Shown: piece by piece, positions 7,241-51,582 of the stretch | Numbering within the stretch: the first letter of the stretch is position 1 | Layout of the letters: each line of letters begins with the position of its first letter | DNA from: Clytia hemisphaerica | Taxonomy: Eukaryota > Cnidaria > Hydrozoa > Leptothecata > Clytiidae | DNA length: 64,000 nucleotides | Direction: 5' to 3' | NCBI GenBank assembly: GCA_902728285.1 | Contig: CACVBU010000743.1 | Location: forward strand, 839,068-903,067 | Program-made: the position numbers and the translations under genes | The notes under the pieces: model-generated | What the model saw: only the letters and a program-made list of their open reading frames with translations | Database searches by the model: none | Told to the model about the DNA's origin: nothing

Positions 7241-7595
7241 TTCCTATTCAAAAACTTTTTAGACTCATTCAGAAATCCTACTTTGACAATAATTTGGGCT
7301 TTACCGCAAAATTTCTAAGTCCAAGTGTCGTGATTAACTTTAGACTGTCCAATATTTCTTGTCCAGAAGATTTAAACATCATTGTTTGCAGTATCTCATA
7401 AAATATCACCCTAGTAATGTTGCTTAGTTATTTAAGAATCAACAAGTAAGGCTGTCAGTGTACACAAATATAGAGATATTGGACAGTCTAAAGTTAATCA
7501 CGACACTTGGACTTAGAAATTTTGCGGTAAAGCGCAAATTATTGTCAAAATAGGATTTCTGAATGAGTCTAAAAAGTTTTTGAATAGGAATAAAC
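7241..7595. mobile_element. ~350-bp foldback element between the large arms
   Basis: The left arm starts ATTCCTATTCAAAAACTT and the right arm ends AAGTTTTTGAATAGGAAT. The arms pair over about 125 bp, including CTAAGTCCAAGTGTCGTGAT and its complement. It abuts the inner TTAA of the left arm. Confidence 0.8.
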
Positions 7596-8036
7596 CAGCT
7601 GCGCTGGAAGCTCCGGCTTAAGAGATTAAAAGATGTGAAAGATGAGCTTGTTGAGTTAGTTGTGTTAGAACGTTGCCAACAAACTGCTAATCAGAACAGA
7701 TCAGAAAGCAAAGTAATAATTCTATTGCAGAGCGAGTATGAGAAATAATCTTAACGAATAAATAAACCAGCTGGAAGTATAGCTCTTCTAAGTGATTACA
7801 CGTGCACTTTCTTGCCTAAAGAGCCAACCCCACCCCCCGCCCACTCATCCTCGACTAAAAAGTTCAAAATTGGAGCTAAAGGAGATAAACATTTAGAAGT
7901 CAATATTTCCAAGTTCTTGATTTGATTGTCCAGATAAAATTTCGGGGAGAAAAATAGCCTAAATTAGAGGCCACGGGCTTTTAGCTAAGCATTATTTTTT
8001 CTGTTGGGATAATACTTGGGGGAGAGTAGGATAAAC

Positions 8037-9590
8037 ATAGTGTGCACCCCCCCCAGAATAGTGGGGGGGGTTTTGCTGATTTGGGTCGAAAATTTTCAGG
8101 TGGGATTTGGGGTTTTCCAGGTTTTTGGTGGGAGAAACAAGTTAAGGTGGGAGTTAATTTCTTTAGGTGGGACTTTGGGTGTTTTGGAAAAAGTTATTAA
8201 AGTAAAATTTCTTATTTTCAGATTTTATGACTTTATGATATATTTTTTTTATATATTTCATAAATGTATATAATAGACATATTAATATATTTTGGATTTA
8301 ACACAGGTTAAATTGCGGTTTAACTTTTGTTTAAAGCGCCTATATACAGTATTCGAATGGCTGGGTGGCCGCCCTCCGCCAACTAAGTCTACTTTGCTAA
8401 TAGCCATGTGACGTCATGTTCAAAATGGCCATCACATCTCCCTGTTCAAGTCGACACTCTAACTGAAAGCTGACAGGATGAGATATTTTACCTCCCTCCC
8501 TCCCTGCAGTTATGGTTGTAGGCGAATCCTCACTTATTTATACTAATATTGTAGTTATCGGGACAAATTTTCCCCAAAACTTCTTATTCGAGGATTAGCC
8601 ATAATTTCATGCCAAACTTATATCTAACGACTCACACTTACTTCTAAGCCATCTGACTACTTGATTGGTTTCTACCCAGGGGAGGGTCCATGTACAAAAA
8701 AGCGGCATGCATCATGGGGTGGGTGGGTGTTTTCAAAAAAATTTTGCTGTTTAGTACTTGTGCACTATACATGGGGGTATCAGGGTCAAATTTCTGATTT
8801 GCTGTTTAGTATACATGTACTATACAGGGGTGTCAGGGTCAAATTTCGGATTTTCTGCTTAGTATTTGTGTACTAAAAAGCCAAAATCAAATCAAATTGT
8901 AATTTATTTTAGATTTTCACCGGAAATCTTTCAAAATTCTCAATTGTTTTTGTCAATTTTCGAGAAAATTTTTTGAAAATTTTTTGAAATTTTTTTTATG
9001 GGAAGAATAAAAAACTTGCCCCAAAGTTTCAATTTTTTTGGCTTAAAATTTTTATTTTATGAAGAGGTGTAAGGGTATATTTGTTAGTTTTCTGGATAGT
9101 ATATTGTACTATGTAAGGGTGTGTTGGGGTATATTTGGCAGTTTGCTTGATAGTATATTGTATTATACAGGGGGTGTCAGGGTGTATTTGTGAGTTTGCT
9201 GGATAGTACTGGATAGTATATTGTAAAATATAGGGGGTGTTGGGGTGTTTTTGGGAGTTTGCTGGCTAGTATTTTGTACATTTTGTACTATAGGGGTAGT
9301 GGGTGTTTAAAATCGAAATTTGCTACAAAGTACTGATACATGCCGCTGTATTGTACATGGACCCCCCCCCCTGTTCTACCCCTGATGTAGGTCATAGGCA
9401 AATGGAAAGTTAAACATATGTAATATATTGCATCTTCATATTATGGTAAAGAAGTTTTGTTTTGTTCCTCGAATTAGTATATTTTTTTTGTTTTTAGCTG
9501 GGATCTGAGAGTCTGGGCTGAAGGTGGGAATTTTAGGATAAGGTGGGACCTGAATTTTCAGGTGGGACCTGGAACCCCCTTGCACACTAT
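8037..9590. mobile_element. 1.55-kb element with ATAGTGTGCA ends and 7-bp TSD
   Basis: Left end ATAGTGTGCACCCCC and right end TTGCACACTAT, flanked by GATAAAC on both sides (8030-8036 and 9591-9597). The subterminal regions contain GGTGGGA(C/T)-type words in multiple copies. A second element (8677-9373) is nested inside. No transposase is encoded, so the superfamily cannot be assigned. Confidence 0.75.
8677..9373. mobile_element. Nested CAGGGG-ended element with internal tandem repeats
   Basis: The left end CAGGGGAGGGTCCATGTACA and right end TGTACATGGACCCCC...CTG are inverted repeats flanked by TTCTACC (8670-8676 and 9374-9380). CAGGG-type ends recall hAT elements, though an 8-bp duplication would be expected. 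Inside are degenerate ~55-65 bp repeats built on TAGTAT.TTGTACTATA..GGGTGT (8740-8880 and 9061-9310), one block on each side of a unique centre. Confidence 0.8.
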
Positions 9591-9660
9591 GATAAACCAA
9601 ATAAAATGGTACAATATAGTGTATGTAATAAATAGTGGTATATTTGGAAAAAAACTGTTT

Positions 9661-10770
9661 CGGGTTTGAAAAAATCTTCAAAAGGAACGGTCGCCCCAGC
9701 CAATGAAATTACGACAAAGTCCAAAAAATATCATTTTCAGTTATAACACTGTGAAAATTTGTTCAAATTTACACAGGAATTGTGTTTTAGTATCCTTTAC
9801 TGAATTCTCATAGTGATATGTTTGTAAAAAATCTGTGTCGGGTTTGAAAAATCAAAGGAACGGTCGCCAGCCGCGATGAAATTACGACAAAGTCCAAAAA
9901 CGATCATTTTAAGCCATAATACTGTGAACATTTCTCCAATCTTGTTCAAATTTACACAGGAATTGTGTTTTAGTATCCTTTATTGAATTCTCATAGTGAT
10001 ATGTTTGTAAAATATCTGTGTCGGGTTTGAAAAATAAAAAAGAACGGTCGCCAGCCGTGATGAAATTACGACAAAGTCCAAAAACGATCATTTTAAGCCA
10101 TAATACTGTGAACATTTCTCCAATCTTGTTCAAATTTACACAGGAATTGTGTTTTAGTATCCTTTATGGAATTCTCATAGTGATATGTTTGTAAAATATC
10201 TGTGTCGGGTTTGAAAAATCAAAAGGAACGGCCGCCAGCCGTGATGAAATTACGACAAAGTCCAAAAACGATCATTTTAAGCCATAATACTGTGAACACT
10301 TCTCCAATCTTGTTCAAATTTACACAGGAATTGTGTTTTAGTATCCTTTATTGAATTCTCATAGTGATATGTTTGTAAAATATCTGTGTCGGGTTTGAAA
10401 AATCAAAAGGAACGGTCGCCAGCCGTGATGAAATTACGACAAAGTCCAAAAACGATCATTTTAAGCCATAATACTGTGAACATTTCTCAAATCTTTTTCA
10501 AATTTACACAGGAATTGTGTTTTAGTATCCTTTATTGAATTCTCATAGTGATATGTTTGTAAAATATCTATGTCGGGTTTGAAAAATTAAAAGGAACGGC
10601 CGCCCAGTCAAAAAATGATGAATACTGTACAAAACAGGATCATTTTCAGCCATACACATAACACCACAAAAACTGCTCAGAACGTTTTCAAATTTGCACT
10701 GTAATGTTGTAATTTTAGTATTCTCTTTCGAATTCCAATGGATGTGTGTTTGAAAGTTTCATTCCATTGT
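9661..10770. repeat. 184-bp tandem satellite, about six copies
   Basis: CGGGTTTGAAAAA recurs at 9661, 9839, 10022, 10206, 10390 and 10574, giving spacings of 178, 183, 184, 184 and 184 bp. The central four copies are nearly identical, while the first and last are clearly diverged, as expected for homogenisation by unequal exchange. Units include AAATTACGACAAAGTCC and ATTTACACAGGAATTGTG. The minus-strand ORF crossing it is an artefact of the repeat. Confidence 0.95.
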
Positions 10771-28041: not shown

Positions 28042-29685
28042 GAGTCTGCTAAATGACGCGCCCCTTACGCGCCCACGCGCCCACGCGCCTTGAAAATTTG
28101 ACGCGCCCTATGATTTCGACGCGCTTTCAAAATTTGACGCGCCCTAGAATTTCGACGCGCCTTCAAAATTTGACGCGCCCTAGAATTTCGACGTGCCTTC
28201 AAAATTTAACGTGCCCTATGATTTCGACGCGCCTTGAAAATTTGACGCGCCCTATGATTTCGACGCGCCCTAGAATTTCGACGCGCCTTGAAAATTTGAC
28301 GCGCCCTAAGATTTCGACATGCCCTAGGGTTAAATGCACAAATTTGTCCCTTCACAGAAAACCCAACTTCTTGTAATCATCTTTGACTTGGGAATTTTTG
28401 AAACGTTTTCCATTGTCGCTGTCTTTGTTAAGTGTACATCTCAATTTGGAAAAGAGTGATTTAAAATAATAATTTGATTACTGCAGTGACGTAGAAAAAA
28501 ATCATGTACTGAAAACACGAATTATGGCTTGGTAATAAAATACTCGGGAAAAAGGTTTGTATCCTCAATCGCTCATAGAACGACACTGGGATAAAAACAA
28601 CATTCTTTATGAGACATGGAGAAAAGTCTGATTTTGAAATCAATCAAAAGATTGAAAGTGAAAACTTTAAAAAAAAACTGTAAAACAATAAAAACTTCTA
28701 GATAAAATACGATACAACAAAAACACTACAAAATAAATCTACTGGTATATATGTAAGAAGCTTTTTACACGAAATAAATTTTTCACAAAAACAGGCATGA
28801 TGAGTAACAACGTAACAGATAAAAATTGTTTCGTTAATTCTGTTTCAAAGATGGGGTGGGCCACTTGAACCAAAGTTTATCAATTAAACTGCAACTTGTT
28901 TATGATTCTATTTGATGAAAAATGATTCACGTGGCCCCGAAGCTTTACCATTCTAAGCGTTTTTTATGCGTAAGCAAGACTCTCACCCGACGTCAACCTC
29001 GTTCCCTGCGCATTATCAGCTTTTTGATGCTTACTGATAGCGCTAGATAATACCCTGGCATTGGCTGGTTTTCGAACGCGAAAGATTACGTAATTCAAAA
29101 ACAAGACGTCAGATTTCATTCGTTCCTGGGTTTGAAACCATTGCATTGCAGTGTAACTTTGTAACGTCAGATTTTTTTATGACGTATTGTTTTGAGAAGT
29201 TCCCCCTCTGAGAGGGGGAACTCGCATCAGCCAACACCAGGGTATTCTCTGGCGTCAATCAGTAACGTAAATAAAGCCTGGGATACACGGGGACGAGGTT
29301 GACCCGACGTTTGAATATGGAGGATAAATCAATAAAGTCGAAGTAATTGTTCTCATTACTGTCAGTTACTTAGGTAGTGTCAAATTATCAGGGCGCGTCA
29401 ATTTTTTAGGCGCGTCGATATTTTAGGGTGCGTCAAATTTTTAGGGCGCGTCAAATTATCTTGGTGCGTCAAATTATCAGGGCGCGTCGATATTTTAAGG
29501 TGCGTCAAATTTTTAGGGCGCGTCAAATTATCAGGGCGCGTCAAATTATCAGGGCGCGTCAAATTACCAGGGCGCGTAGGCGCGTGTGTGCGTAACATTT
29601 TAGGGTGCGTGGGCGCGTAAGGCGCGAAGGCACGTTAAAAATATGAGGGCGCGTGGGCGCGTAAGGCGCGTCATTTAGCAGACTC
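28042..29685. mobile_element. 1.64-kb Mutator-like foldback element with GACGCGCC arrays and 9-bp TSD
   Basis: Ends GAGTCTGCTAAATGACGCGC / GCGCGTCATTTAGCAGACTC are exact inverted repeats. The direct duplication AAAACAATC lies at 28033-28041 and 29686-29694. Each arm (~28042-28330 and ~29390-29685) is a tandem array of ~17-bp units, GACGCGCCTTGAAAATT alternating with GACGCGCCCTAGAATTTC. A 9-bp TSD with long complex TIRs is the Mutator/MULE pattern. The centre has no transposase. It holds a ~150-bp piece related to the centre of 34757-35078 and a nested element at 28994-29301. ORFs across the arms are artefacts of the array. Confidence 0.9.
28994..29301. mobile_element. 308-bp nested element with CAACCTCGT ends and 9-bp TSD
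   Basis: Inverted ends CAACCTCGTTCCC / GGGGACGAGGTTG; duplication ACCCGACGT at 28985-28993 and 29302-29310. It contains GAGAAGTTCCCCCTCTGAGA, a short hairpin, and AATAAAGCCTGGGA. A diverged right end recurs at ~62690-62738 (AATAAAGCCTGGGAAGAGCA, then GGGACGAGGTTG). Probably a small Mutator-like MITE. Confidence 0.85.
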
Positions 29686-34756: not shown

Positions 34757-35078
34757 ACACCCCTGTCTCAGTGCCCCGGTGGCATGATTTCAGTACATGA
34801 TTTTTTTCAGTACATGGTTTCAGTACATGATTTTTTCCTACGTCACTGCAGTAATCAAATTTTTATTGCACTCATTTGTAATCATCCTAAATGGCTTGGG
34901 AATTCAAGAACTGTTTTTTATTGTCGCTGTCTTTATTCAATTTATATCTCAATTCACAAATGAGTGCAATAAAAATTTGATTACTGCAGTGACGTAGGAA
35001 AAAATCATGTACTGAAACCATGTACTGAAAAAAATCATGTACTGAAATCATGCCACCGGGGCACTGAGACAGGGGTGT
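34757..35078. mobile_element. 322-bp ACACC-ended hairpin MITE with 6-bp TSD
   Basis: ACACCCCTGTCTCAGTGCCC / GGGCACTGAGACAGGGGTGT ends. Arms pair for ~125 bp, including GATTACTGCAGTGACGTAGG. Flanked by ATTGAG (34751-34756 and 35079-35084). Related ends occur at 1-237 and 42590-42853; related centre at ~28400-28510. TCAGTACATGATTT is tandemly repeated in each arm. Confidence 0.85.
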
Positions 35079-37388: not shown

Positions 37389-38113
37389 TATGCTGCTGGC
37401 CAGGGTACCTTCATGCAAAAACACTAAAATAGAAAAATCAGTCCCTTCGTAGGGTCAGTCCGTTCGTAGGGTACCATTTTGAAGAAATTTTTTAAAACAT
37501 TGGAAGATTTTGAGAACATTCTGGAATTTCAGTCCCATTCGCAAAATTGTTCAAAAAATGAGTCACACGTAGGGTCCATCCCGTCGGTCGGCAGGAGTAG
37601 TATACCCCTCACCCCTGGGACGAAAATCACCTGGTGAAACAGGAGGTCTAAAGTCTTCCAACTTTCTCTCAATTCTCTATTCCTTTGTGCCTTGACCTTA
37701 CAGTAACAATTGTACCTTAAGCCAGCTCCTGTCATGATTTATCGCCAACATCAACACACCTTTTACCATCTCTCACTCCACAAGTCAATCACTAAAACTT
37801 GAACGATTCTAATCAAAAATGTAAAAGATATACAGTATACATTAGAAATGAAATTTTAAACAAATTTTGAAATTGGAGAGACTGTATTTATATTCATCAA
37901 GAAGAAAAGAATGAAATTAAATATTGGGACAGCTTGATCCTTCATAAGGACAAACATCACTTGAACTTTCTAGTGGATTTTTTCATATTACCCTGAGAAC
38001 ATATCATATGACAGAAGAAAAATGATTCGTTTATTTCATAAAAGGGCCCACAACTTTAACTTGCATAATATTTGAAATCAATATTGATTTATTTGACGGC
38101 TAGTTCGAAACGC

Positions 38114-38155
38114 AGGTCACAGGTCAACAGGTCACAGGTCACAGGTCACAGGTCA
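38114..38155 (+). promoter_or_regulatory. Array of six AGGTCA half-sites (DR1/DR2 spacing)
   Basis: Half-sites at 38114, 38121, 38129, 38136, 38143 and 38150 are separated by C, AC, C, C and C. AGGTCA direct repeats spaced by one base are the canonical DR1 element bound by RXR, HNF4 and COUP-TF family nuclear receptors. The mirrored array lies at 38945-38986. Binding is inferred, not shown. Confidence 0.6.
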
Positions 38156-38944
38156 ACAAAGTGCAGACCGGAAAAAAGATAATAAGATCATAACATTACA
38201 TAACATAACATCAATACATAACGCATTAAATTACAAAAAAGTAATACATGCTATTTAGATATTATAAAATGACAATTGAATAAAATAACAACCTAGTGAC
38301 ACTTACTTACAAAAATAATGACAAAATCATAAAATATGATGCCTAACAAGACAAAAGCACGAAAAATATTTATTATACAAAATGTGATGTGGATGGTGTG
38401 AATGGATAAAAAATGGCACCAAACAGAAGCTTGCAAGGTCCCTAAGAGAGTGGTTTTAGAAGGATGGAACTAATTAATTATTCAGTTATTATTTTAATGA
38501 CTTAATGACAACTTTTGACAAAAATGTTGACAGAATCACAAAATATCATGTCTTACAAGAGAAAAACACCAAAAATATTTAGCATACCGAATGTGATGAT
38601 AACAATATGGCTGGATATAAAATTACACCAATCAGAAGCTTGTGAATTCTCTGAGAAAGTAGTTTTAGAGCGATGAGTTTTATTATATGTAACCATCATA
38701 TAACATTACAAACATTACAATATGTAATATACCTGTTATACGTATAATATGGTTTTAAATCTTCTGGTCTGCATTATACACGGCGCAAACTGCGAAAGAT
38801 CCATAAAAGCACATGGTTAAATTTTGATGTTTGAAATGGTTTTATATGGATGAAATTGCTTGAGAATTATGTTTTTGATAATTCTTTGTATTTTCCAAAC
38901 ATTTTCCTCTGCAATGACATTGATTAGAGTCAACCTGTCATCAC

Positions 38945-38986
38945 TGACCTGTGACCTGTGACCTGTTGACCTGTGACCTGTGACCT
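38945..38986 (-). promoter_or_regulatory. Mirrored array of six TGACCT half-sites
   Basis: Half-sites at 38945, 38952, 38959, 38967, 38974 and 38981. They are the exact inverse of the left array, including the position of the single 2-base spacer counted from the outer end. Confidence 0.6.
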
Positions 38987-39012
38987 GCGTTTCGAACTAG
39001 CCGTTTATTTGA

Positions 39013-46854: not shown

Positions 46855-48585
46855 GAGGCCCGGAATTCCCGAGTTATTTTTTCCGAGTTAAAAAAACCGA
46901 GTTAAAAAAAAACCGAGTTATCCCGAGTTATGACGTCATTTTTGGAATTTAGTGACGTCATTTTTCATTTCATAACTCGGTTTATTTTGCTTCCTTTAAC
47001 TTTCCGAGTTATTTTCCATTTTTTAACTCGGGAATTTTTGCTTCCTTTAACTTTCCGAGTTATTTTCCATTTTTTAACTCGGGAATTTTTGCTTCCTTTA
47101 ACATTCTGAGTTATTTTCCATTTTTTGACTCGGGAATTTTTGCTTCCTTTAGCTTTCCGAGTTATTTTTGAATTTTTAACTCGGGAATTTTTGCTTCCTG
47201 TAGCTTTCCGAGTTATTTTCCATTTTTTTTGGCTTGTAAAAACAGCCAATAGTTCCAATAAGGGTCACAAAATCCCGAAATAATCAGTTTTTTCCTCAAT
47301 TTTTGCGGCACATACCCGTCATCTCGCAACCCTAGTATCCCCGGGGCTTCTATAAAGCCGAACGGGTCTTACACGATCCCTCCATTGTTTTTCAATAACA
47401 CAGGGATGTGCCAAGCCAAGGGCGACTTTTCTGCTTCTAAAAATTTAGTGTTCATTCATTCGCTTACGTTACGTTTATTCTTTGTACGTGTGACAACGAG
47501 TGACAAAAAACTCGACTAGCAGTTTCCTCGTTGCTTAAAGGTAAAATTTTCCAGTATCTTTCACTTCACATTGCGCAGAATGGGGTTTGATGTTCGAATT
47601 ATTTTTATAAAAAGACGGGGGTAAACATTCGAATAACAATATACCTTCAGGTCAACATTTAAAGACTTTCCACTTTTTTACCCGCAAGTCTAATTAGAGC
47701 CTTATGACACAAAAAGATTCGATTCATAATTCGAATGTTTTGCAAAGGTCACATGCGTGCGGGAAACTTTCGAATGTTTTTCTGTAAGTTGATTTGGTGA
47801 GTGTGTGCACTCTGGACAGTTTTGTTTATTTATTTTTTAACATCTCTCATAAAAATCTACGAATAGTCTGTGAAATGATTGATTCAAGAATCGTTGGTGA
47901 TTCATTCAAATTTTTTACAGCGAAGGGGGAAGGACTCAGTGAATTTTTCTGAGAATCTTGTCATGTCATTTACAGTATTCTTTAATGAAATAGGGAGGAA
48001 ATATGAATTTTGAAATAGCTTTATCTCATCACTTACCTGCAGTATTTTTTGAGATTTTATTTATGCTGTGATATTTTTGAAGGGCTTACACTTTGTTTAT
48101 CTAGCAGGTTTTAACTTCAGTTCTTGCTTTTCAATTAAATATTCACTTGTTTGTTGATTATTCATTTTATTAAGCAAGTTAAGGTTTTTCTAGTTGGTAA
48201 TGGATGGTTTTGTCTTTGATTTAGGTTGGTATGGGATCAATAGATTAAAACTGGTGGTTTTTTTATGAAGAAAAATAACTCGGAAAGTTAAAGGAAGCAA
48301 AAATTCCCGAGTTAAAAAATGGAAAATAACTCGGAAAGTTAAAGGAAGCAAAAATTCCCGAGTTAAAAAATGGAAAATAACTCGGAAAGTTAAAGGAAGC
48401 AAAAATTCCCGAGTTAAAAAATGGAAAATAACTCGGAAAGTTAAAGGAAGCAAAATAAACCGAGTTATGAAATGAAAAATGACGTCACTAAATTCCAAAA
48501 ATGACGTCATAACTCGGGATAACTCGGTTTTTTTTTAACTCGGTTTTTTTAACTCGGAAAAAATAACTCGGGAATTCCGGGCCTC
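46855..48585. mobile_element. 1.73-kb Mutator-like foldback element with 51-bp repeats and 9-bp TSD
   Basis: Ends GAGGCCCGGAATTCCCGAGT / ACTCGGGAATTCCGGGCCTC. Duplication CTATATAGG at 46846-46854 and 48586-48594. Each arm carries CCGAGTTA words, two TGACGTCA palindromes, and a 51-bp tandem unit (CTTTCCGAGTTATTTTCC, then TTTTTTAACTCGGGAATTTT, then TGCTTCCTTTAA), about five copies at left and four at right. A unit length divisible by three makes long repetitive ORFs in both arms, which are not genes. A CCCGGG-family end fragment (~47230-47342) interrupts the left arm. The centre encodes no transposase. Confidence 0.9.
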
Positions 48586-51138: not shown

Positions 51139-51582
51139 TTAAAACTTGACTACTAATGTACGGCTTCTATACTCGTCTTTTGTGTTCAGTTGAGGCTTTA
51201 ATTGATTAATAAAAAGTGCCTCTAGTGTCATTAAATGGCTTGCCGAACGAGAACTACCTTTCAAAATGGCTACGTCATCCATTGTTAATGAGTGCTGGCA
51301 TGACGTCATGTGAATGGTAACGGGTGCGTTTTTCCTACCGTGCTCCTTAATTCGGGTGATAAGATGTCGCCGTGTTTGGCCGACATAGCACGAATTACAT
51401 CGTGGACAGGTAATTTTATAAACTACACCACTTTTTAAGGATTTTTCCACGGAGGACTTCAATGATGGTAGCACTGTTTTTAACTTTTTCAAAGTAAATA
51501 TGACACGACAAGGGGCTTTCAACTTTCCAAGGTTATATTTCAATTCCTCAGATAATTTTCCCCTGTATTCAACAAAAAACAT
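51139..51582 (-). CDS. Penelope-type GIY-YIG endonuclease domain protein (147 aa), detached from its reverse transcriptase
   Basis: GIY-YIG nucleases nick DNA; in Penelope-like retroelements the domain sits C-terminal to the reverse transcriptase and makes the target nick. Here VVY (53-55) and YVG (66-68) form the GIY-YIG signature. R71/R72 and the later E121 (TLEALFIN) fit the catalytic Arg and Glu. C59, C62, C65 and H81 match the Cys/His cluster placed inside this domain in animal Penelope elements. The N-terminal ~50 residues (EYRGKLSEELKYNLGKLK) match the linker after the Penelope RT. An in-frame stop lies five codons upstream of the start, and no RT is found in the surrounding kilobase, so it is either a truncated retroelement or a captured domain. 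The frame itself is intact. It is carried inside 50701-53061. Confidence 0.85.
   Translation of the reverse strand: MFFVEYRGKLSEELKYNLGKLKAPCRVIFTLKKLKTVLPSLKSSVEKSLKSGVVYKITCPRCNSCYVGQTRRHLITRIKEHGRKNAPVTIHMTSCQHSLTMDDVAILKGSSRSASHLMTLEALFINQLKPQLNTKDEYRSRTLVVKF

Follow-up and report, generated by a model that had tools for sequence, protein, structure and literature searches.

The window, the whole 64-kb stretch of DNA analysed here, contains a 907-bp element (38097–39003) that carries a row of AGGTCA motifs just inside each of its ends. Two AGGTCA-like half-sites in direct repeat with a 1-base spacer make up a DR1 nuclear-receptor site, and each end of the element holds four perfect pairs; the eight perfect DR1 pairs of the window all lie inside it. 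The locus thus raises the question of whether such arrays belong to the transposition machinery of the element itself or serve to engage host nuclear receptors. The original prediction had put forward both readings, a transposase-binding satellite that coincides with DR1 and an element that exploits nuclear receptors.

Anatomy of the element and its neighbours

As predicted, the 907-bp element is flanked by a perfect TSD: it is bounded by inverted 16-bp termini and by the 9-bp sequence TTTATTTGA, identical on both sides at 9/9 bases (Table 1). Its arms are 60 nt long and 90% complementary, with the outer 16 nt perfect, so that terminal inverted repeats are present. Perfect AGGTCA motifs start at 38114, 38121, 38129, 38136, 38143, and 38150 on the plus strand and at 38945, 38952, 38959, 38967, 38974, and 38981 on the minus strand, and all 12 point inward when read from each end. 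Six perfect motifs inside each end had been predicted correctly, as had the left-hand spacing of 1-2-1-1-1, whereas the right-hand spacing is 1-1-2-1-1 in either reading direction. A search of the interior for ORFs of at least 120 aa returned none; its direct repeat pairs 38286–38466 with 38495–38675 (181 nt, 75%).

Table 1. Coordinates of the features of the 907-bp element in the window
Feature	Position	Strand
Left TSD, TTTATTTGA	38088–38096	
Left 16-bp inverted terminus, CGGCTAGTTCGAAACG	38097–38112	+
Left array, six CAGGTCA units, half-site spacers 1-2-1-1-1	38113–38155	+
Interior, no ORF of at least 120 aa, imperfect 181-nt direct repeat	38156–38944	
Right array, six units, spacers 1-1-2-1-1	38945–38987	-
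Right 16-bp inverted terminus	38988–39003	-
Right TSD, TTTATTTGA	39004–39012	

Tandem Repeats Finder gives the 7-mer CAGGTCA as the repeat unit. The DR1 spacing is therefore a consequence of a 7-bp tandem repeat and not an independent feature. AGGTCA occurs 46 times in the window, where shuffles give 25.95 (sd 5.80); the element accounts for 12 of the 46 occurrences.

A scan of the window for exact inverted 10-mers 200–6000 bp apart with perfect 9-bp TSDs returned this element and two others. The one at 28042–29685 (TSD AAAACAATC) ends in the inverted terminus GAGTCTGCTAAATGACGCGCC and carries long inverted arrays whose units are built on 18 bp; its ends number 318 + 310 = 628 in the genome at up to three mismatches (control, 0). 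The one at 46855–48585 (TSD CTATATAGG) has GAGGCCCGGAATTCCCGAGTT as its terminus; the unit of its inverted arrays measures 51 bp, and its genomic ends number 518 + 498 = 1,016 at the same tolerance (control, 1). Both are putative MULEs, judged by TSD length and anatomy, and their array units are unlike CAGGTCA and contain no receptor motif. A single window thus holds three high-copy families with 9-bp TSDs and unrelated inverted tandem arrays. Since all three have arrays and only one has a receptor-like unit, arrays of this kind may well serve the elements' own proteins.

Other repeats were seen in the same window. Short tandem repeats resembling TTTCAGTACATGATTTT at 34783–34836 and 34999–35052 face each other as reverse complements about 160 bp apart and are perhaps a small foldback element; a string similar to TTTCAGTACATGATTTT also lies near 28500, inside the 28042–29685 element. 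At 9632–10604 there is a 184-bp tandem unit (4.6 copies, 97%), and a 147-aa ORF with a GIY-YIG match (51139–51582, minus strand; E 1.6e-5) is perhaps a mobile-element remnant.

A dispersed family with two terminus types

Across the 417 Mb searched (951 contigs), the terminus pattern GGCTAGTTCGAAACGCAGGTCA with up to three mismatches marks 715 ends (359 forward and 356 reverse), hereafter type A, compared with one for the reversed control. The copy count that had been proposed as a check accordingly places the array in a genome-wide family. From the 715 ends 100 places were listed, and copies were delimited from fetched loci as two ends less than 5 kb apart (n = 44). A perfect 9-bp TSD flanks 42 of the 44; MULE TSDs measure 8–11 bp (PMC6446971), and 9 bp is the usual length. 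The TSD sequence is not fixed, although 40 of the 42 have A or T at the fourth position. The two exceptions are mismatched at 5/9 bases (L011) and at 6/9 bases (L042), the latter matching if one base is skipped.

Loci L001–L030 were picked by similarity to the left end including the array, and for this reason array counts are given from L031 on, where picking was by an exact terminus plus first half-site. Among 49 such ends (out of 105 type-A ends), the number of units is one in 3, two in 1, three in 9, four in 3, five in 5, six in 25, seven in 2, and eight in 1. AGGTCA is exact in 171 of 192 inner units, the commonest altered unit being CAGGTCG (10). Spacers measure 1 base in 164 cases, 2 in 27, and 3 in 1, as read by a parser that permits small shifts only. 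The array thus varies in the manner of a satellite. Four type-A ends (L066, L072, L078, and L079) have one half-site each and share the flank tgtcgtttgact; they are apparently one transposon end carried within a different dispersed repeat, and they remain in the unit-number counts, among the ends with one unit.

The same array occurs behind a second terminus. We took 20 stretches at places with four half-sites and without a listed type-A end nearby, using the first suitable ones in contig order, and in 20/20 the array adjoins CGGTTAGTGTAAAACR, with one base changed in three. Four of the first fifteen positions of this type-B terminus depart from type A, but the CAGGTCA unit is kept. With up to three mismatches its pattern marks 488 + 484 = 972 ends (control, 1 + 2), a count that may overlap with the 715 of type A. 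Six of 21 type-B array ends (L088, L094, L095, L097, L101, and L102) carry a type-A interior, so here the outer 16 bp seem to have been swapped or altered without a change in array or interior. Such ends, together with the unrelated arrays of the three window families, allow one to ask which part of the end sets transposase specificity. In type-B ends, which were preselected for at least four exact units, the 107 inner units comprise 91 with an exact half-site, 6 with GGGTCA, and 10 with another form.

Four AGGTCA in a row with 1-base spacers occur at 58 + 50 places in the genome, and the reversed control pattern at none. A chance motif is ruled out by these counts (108 vs. 0) and by those of the terminus pattern (715 vs. 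1). A quirk of one copy is likewise ruled out by the presence of the array under both terminus types and in a transposase-encoding copy described below. The DR1 match could have been a coincidence of the copy in the window; it is instead family-wide, yet the number of units ranges from 1 to 8 per end.

Within the arrays, inner units show no clear gain in conservation over the interior in either set of copies: changes per site in 44 copies are 0.041 (left) and 0.040 (right) for inner units vs. 0.023 for the interior, and in the 18 copies from L031 on they are 0.023 and 0.079 vs. 0.034. Tandem arrays are difficult to align, and the array divergence is therefore inflated; the low divergence of the terminus and first unit is unusable, as copies had been picked by those parts. 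Conservation of the array was tried as a proof of function and is unsupported by these figures. Because it gives no independent proof, the argument is carried by architecture.

A transposase-encoding copy and the probable role of the array

A 10.4-kb copy on contig C327 (G000:C327:310,531-320,919) has a type-A terminus at both ends, its own 9-bp TSD (ATGCCAAAG), and six half-sites on the left and eight on the right. Of 512 candidates, 40 were scored in a search with its outer 568 bp, which yielded 73 matches. The one full-length match is the query's own place, the other end of the copy matches positions 1–85, and all remaining matches fall within positions 1–59, the terminus plus array. These ~59 bp are the sole part found to be common to the short copies and the 10.4-kb copy. 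Among the matches and ends listed, comparison of coordinates by eye placed no further transposase match next to a zero-mismatch end.

One exon of the 10.4-kb copy (L063:4633-5232) matches 98 genomic places, including relatives at 51–72% identity, and the Pfam MULE model matches 91. By hand comparison, five of the 98 (on C628, C656, C341, C453, and C662) overlap independently found MULE-model places, and the exon is thus probably MULE-related by transitive homology. Scored directly against MULE, L063 reaches 13.5 bits (E 0.099) and its relative L084 15.3 bits (E 0.027), both under the cut-off of 27.6. TSDs of 8–9 bp also occur in the hAT, P, Merlin, and KDZ superfamilies, and MULE was chosen over these because the exon's relatives overlap the MULE-model places. 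Profile libraries returned no DNA-binding or SWIM domain in the searched open frames. The transposase exon, run against the Protein Data Bank, had two matches, both weak and to a ribosomal protein (E 0.45 and 0.54), and an NCBIfam search gave weak matches alone, far under cut-off. The residues QIDKTF, GMDREKA, and NAIESTH, which we take to resemble a D-D-E set, and CEC...CAH over two frames, presumably resembling a SWIM finger, were picked out by eye, without confirmation from any library. Further open frames of the copy (L063:3030-3713, 7243-7716, and 7874-8455) contain no domain at or above the Pfam cut-off.

The observed inverted ends, 9-bp TSDs, shared terminus and array, variable unit number, and occurrence of the array under two terminus types point to one explanation. 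The element at 38097–39003 is very probably a non-autonomous MULE that a MULE transposase like the C327 one mobilises in trans, and its array would be a series of sites bound by a DNA-binding protein of the element itself, most likely the transposase. Both the binding of the array by transposase and the mobilisation of this copy by a C327-type enzyme are predictions from sequence. A MULE transposase supplied in trans would bind the repeated 7-mer at both ends; repetition would lend specificity to a short motif and help the two ends to pair; and cutting at the 16-bp termini would be followed by insertion with a 9-bp stagger. Of the two readings first proposed, the transposase-binding satellite coinciding with DR1 is favoured, as the array adjoins the terminus in both short and transposase-encoding copies, for which a search found nothing else in common, and its unit number varies as in derivatives of Muta1. 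The family has a subterminal tandem array at both ends that differs in unit number among derivatives, as do Muta-type elements. The receptor match of the array is then probably a coincidence of the 7-bp repeat.

The array could instead be read by a separate regulator encoded by the element, as VANDAL MULEs of Arabidopsis are by their VANC anti-silencing proteins; the VANC21 motif YAGTATTAY was gained by tandem repeat formation (PMC5735166). The further open frames of the 10.4-kb copy, to which no function is assigned, could encode such a protein, but they may equally be other transposase exons. The position of the array at two ends, adjoining the inverted terminus, is as for a transposition site, and we consider a separate regulator very unlikely. 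A functionless array, a neutral satellite by the terminus that was lengthened by replication slippage and copied by transposition, would suit both the variable unit number and inner units that diverge about as the interior does. The alignment difficulty of tandem arrays inflates that divergence, however, and the unit stays the same between the two ends, between the two terminus types, and in the copy that encodes transposase, with at least one perfect DR1 pair kept in 49 of 52 type-A ends (L031–L080). Neutrality thus appears extremely improbable.

Nuclear receptors and the spread of DR1

The perfect DR1 AGGTCANAGGTCA occurs 1,252 + 1,275 = 2,527 times in the genome, ~35 times as often as the control pattern (40 + 33 = 73). 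Of 100 listed sites, at least 78 are in family ends, each being no more than 100 bp away from a listed end with zero mismatches; mismatched ends may be among the remaining 22. Hundreds of element copies have scattered the DR1 site through the genome. Its spacer is C in 92 of the 100 listed places.

The zf-C4 model has 14 genomic matches, some of them halves of one domain, of which ten were translated and read. Animals are expected to have more nuclear receptors than this, and the set here looks small. Of two zf-C4 domains compared with solved structures, one is closest to HNF4-alpha and the second, a partial domain, to COUP-TF1. The RXR P-box, CEGCKGFFKR, is absent from the ten matches read (the rest of the 14 being mostly half domains). 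The P-box CDGCRGFFKR was seen in three of the matches read at loci L105–L114.

With DR1 sites and HNF4-like and COUP-TF-like DNA-binding domains present in the same genome, receptor binding of the arrays is possible. The element might then exploit its host, with HNF4- or COUP-TF-type proteins binding the arrays and acting as transposition cofactors, activating the element's promoter, or steering it to open chromatin. In human cells, receptors do bind sites that Alu has dispersed (PMC1785376, PMC3252374). The arrays nevertheless stand at both ends of gene-less copies, their C spacer is what the tandem unit dictates, and the arrays of the other window elements are without receptor motifs. Had only receptor-tolerated changes been kept, altered half-sites should have the form RGKTCA; this is so for 0 of 21 in the type-A ends from L031 on and 6 of 16 in type B (all GGGTCA), a pattern that is not uniform. 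Exploitation of receptors therefore looks highly improbable. From this second proposed reading, the motif match, its genome-wide number, and the receptor genes stand, with no sign of use.

A related proposition, that a DNA transposon supplies most of the genome's perfect DR1 sites and that its ends would be bound by host HNF4- or COUP-TF-type receptors, is unlikely on the sequence evidence. If true, the receptor would compete or cooperate with transposase at the ends, coupling transposition to receptor activity, and insertions would become receptor sinks or enhancers. Among the open-licence papers returned by a search, judged by titles and opening lines, none concerned receptor sites at DNA-transposon ends; Alu and Six1 papers came up instead, which leaves room for an earlier account of the DR1 coincidence. 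With arrays that match a receptor site, the family offers a natural experiment: is a flood of receptor sites used, ignored, or silenced?

Comparison with known systems

Taken as a transposon, there is nothing unusual in the element: MULE-type transposons with subterminal tandem repeats are known from mosquitoes too. Muta1 of Aedes aegypti has a terminal motif followed by nine 12-bp subterminal repeats, 8–9 bp TSDs, and many non-autonomous derivatives that have only ends in common and vary in repeat number, and 10 of 12 long-TIR MULE families of that mosquito have repeats of 9–15 bp (PMC5225508). The present family resembles these elements in its short terminal motif and subterminal array, its TSD length, its derivatives that share only ends, and its variable repeat number. 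It differs from Muta1 in its 7-bp unit, its inverted end of ~60 bp, and the size of the transposase-encoding copy (10.4 vs. 3.2 kb). Activity has been demonstrated for Muta1, whereas the present family is known from sequence alone.

Galileo of Drosophila, a member of the P superfamily, also has tandem repeats within its inverted ends, which hold further binding sites for its THAP-domain transposase (PMC3688188); it belongs to another superfamily, and binding of the array is putative here. The VANDAL elements of Arabidopsis are MULEs that likewise carry short motifs amplified into tandem repeats, which in their case are read by an element protein, VANC21 binding its densely arrayed nine-base motif (PMC5735166). 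The present array is found at the ends only, whereas the VANDAL motifs are spread over several non-coding regions and act in anti-silencing. Alu is likewise a mobile element that multiplies direct-repeat receptor sites across a genome (PMC1785376, PMC3252374). Alu is a retroelement with demonstrated receptor binding, whereas the present element is a DNA transposon with tandem DR1 arrays at both ends, where receptor binding is no more than possible.
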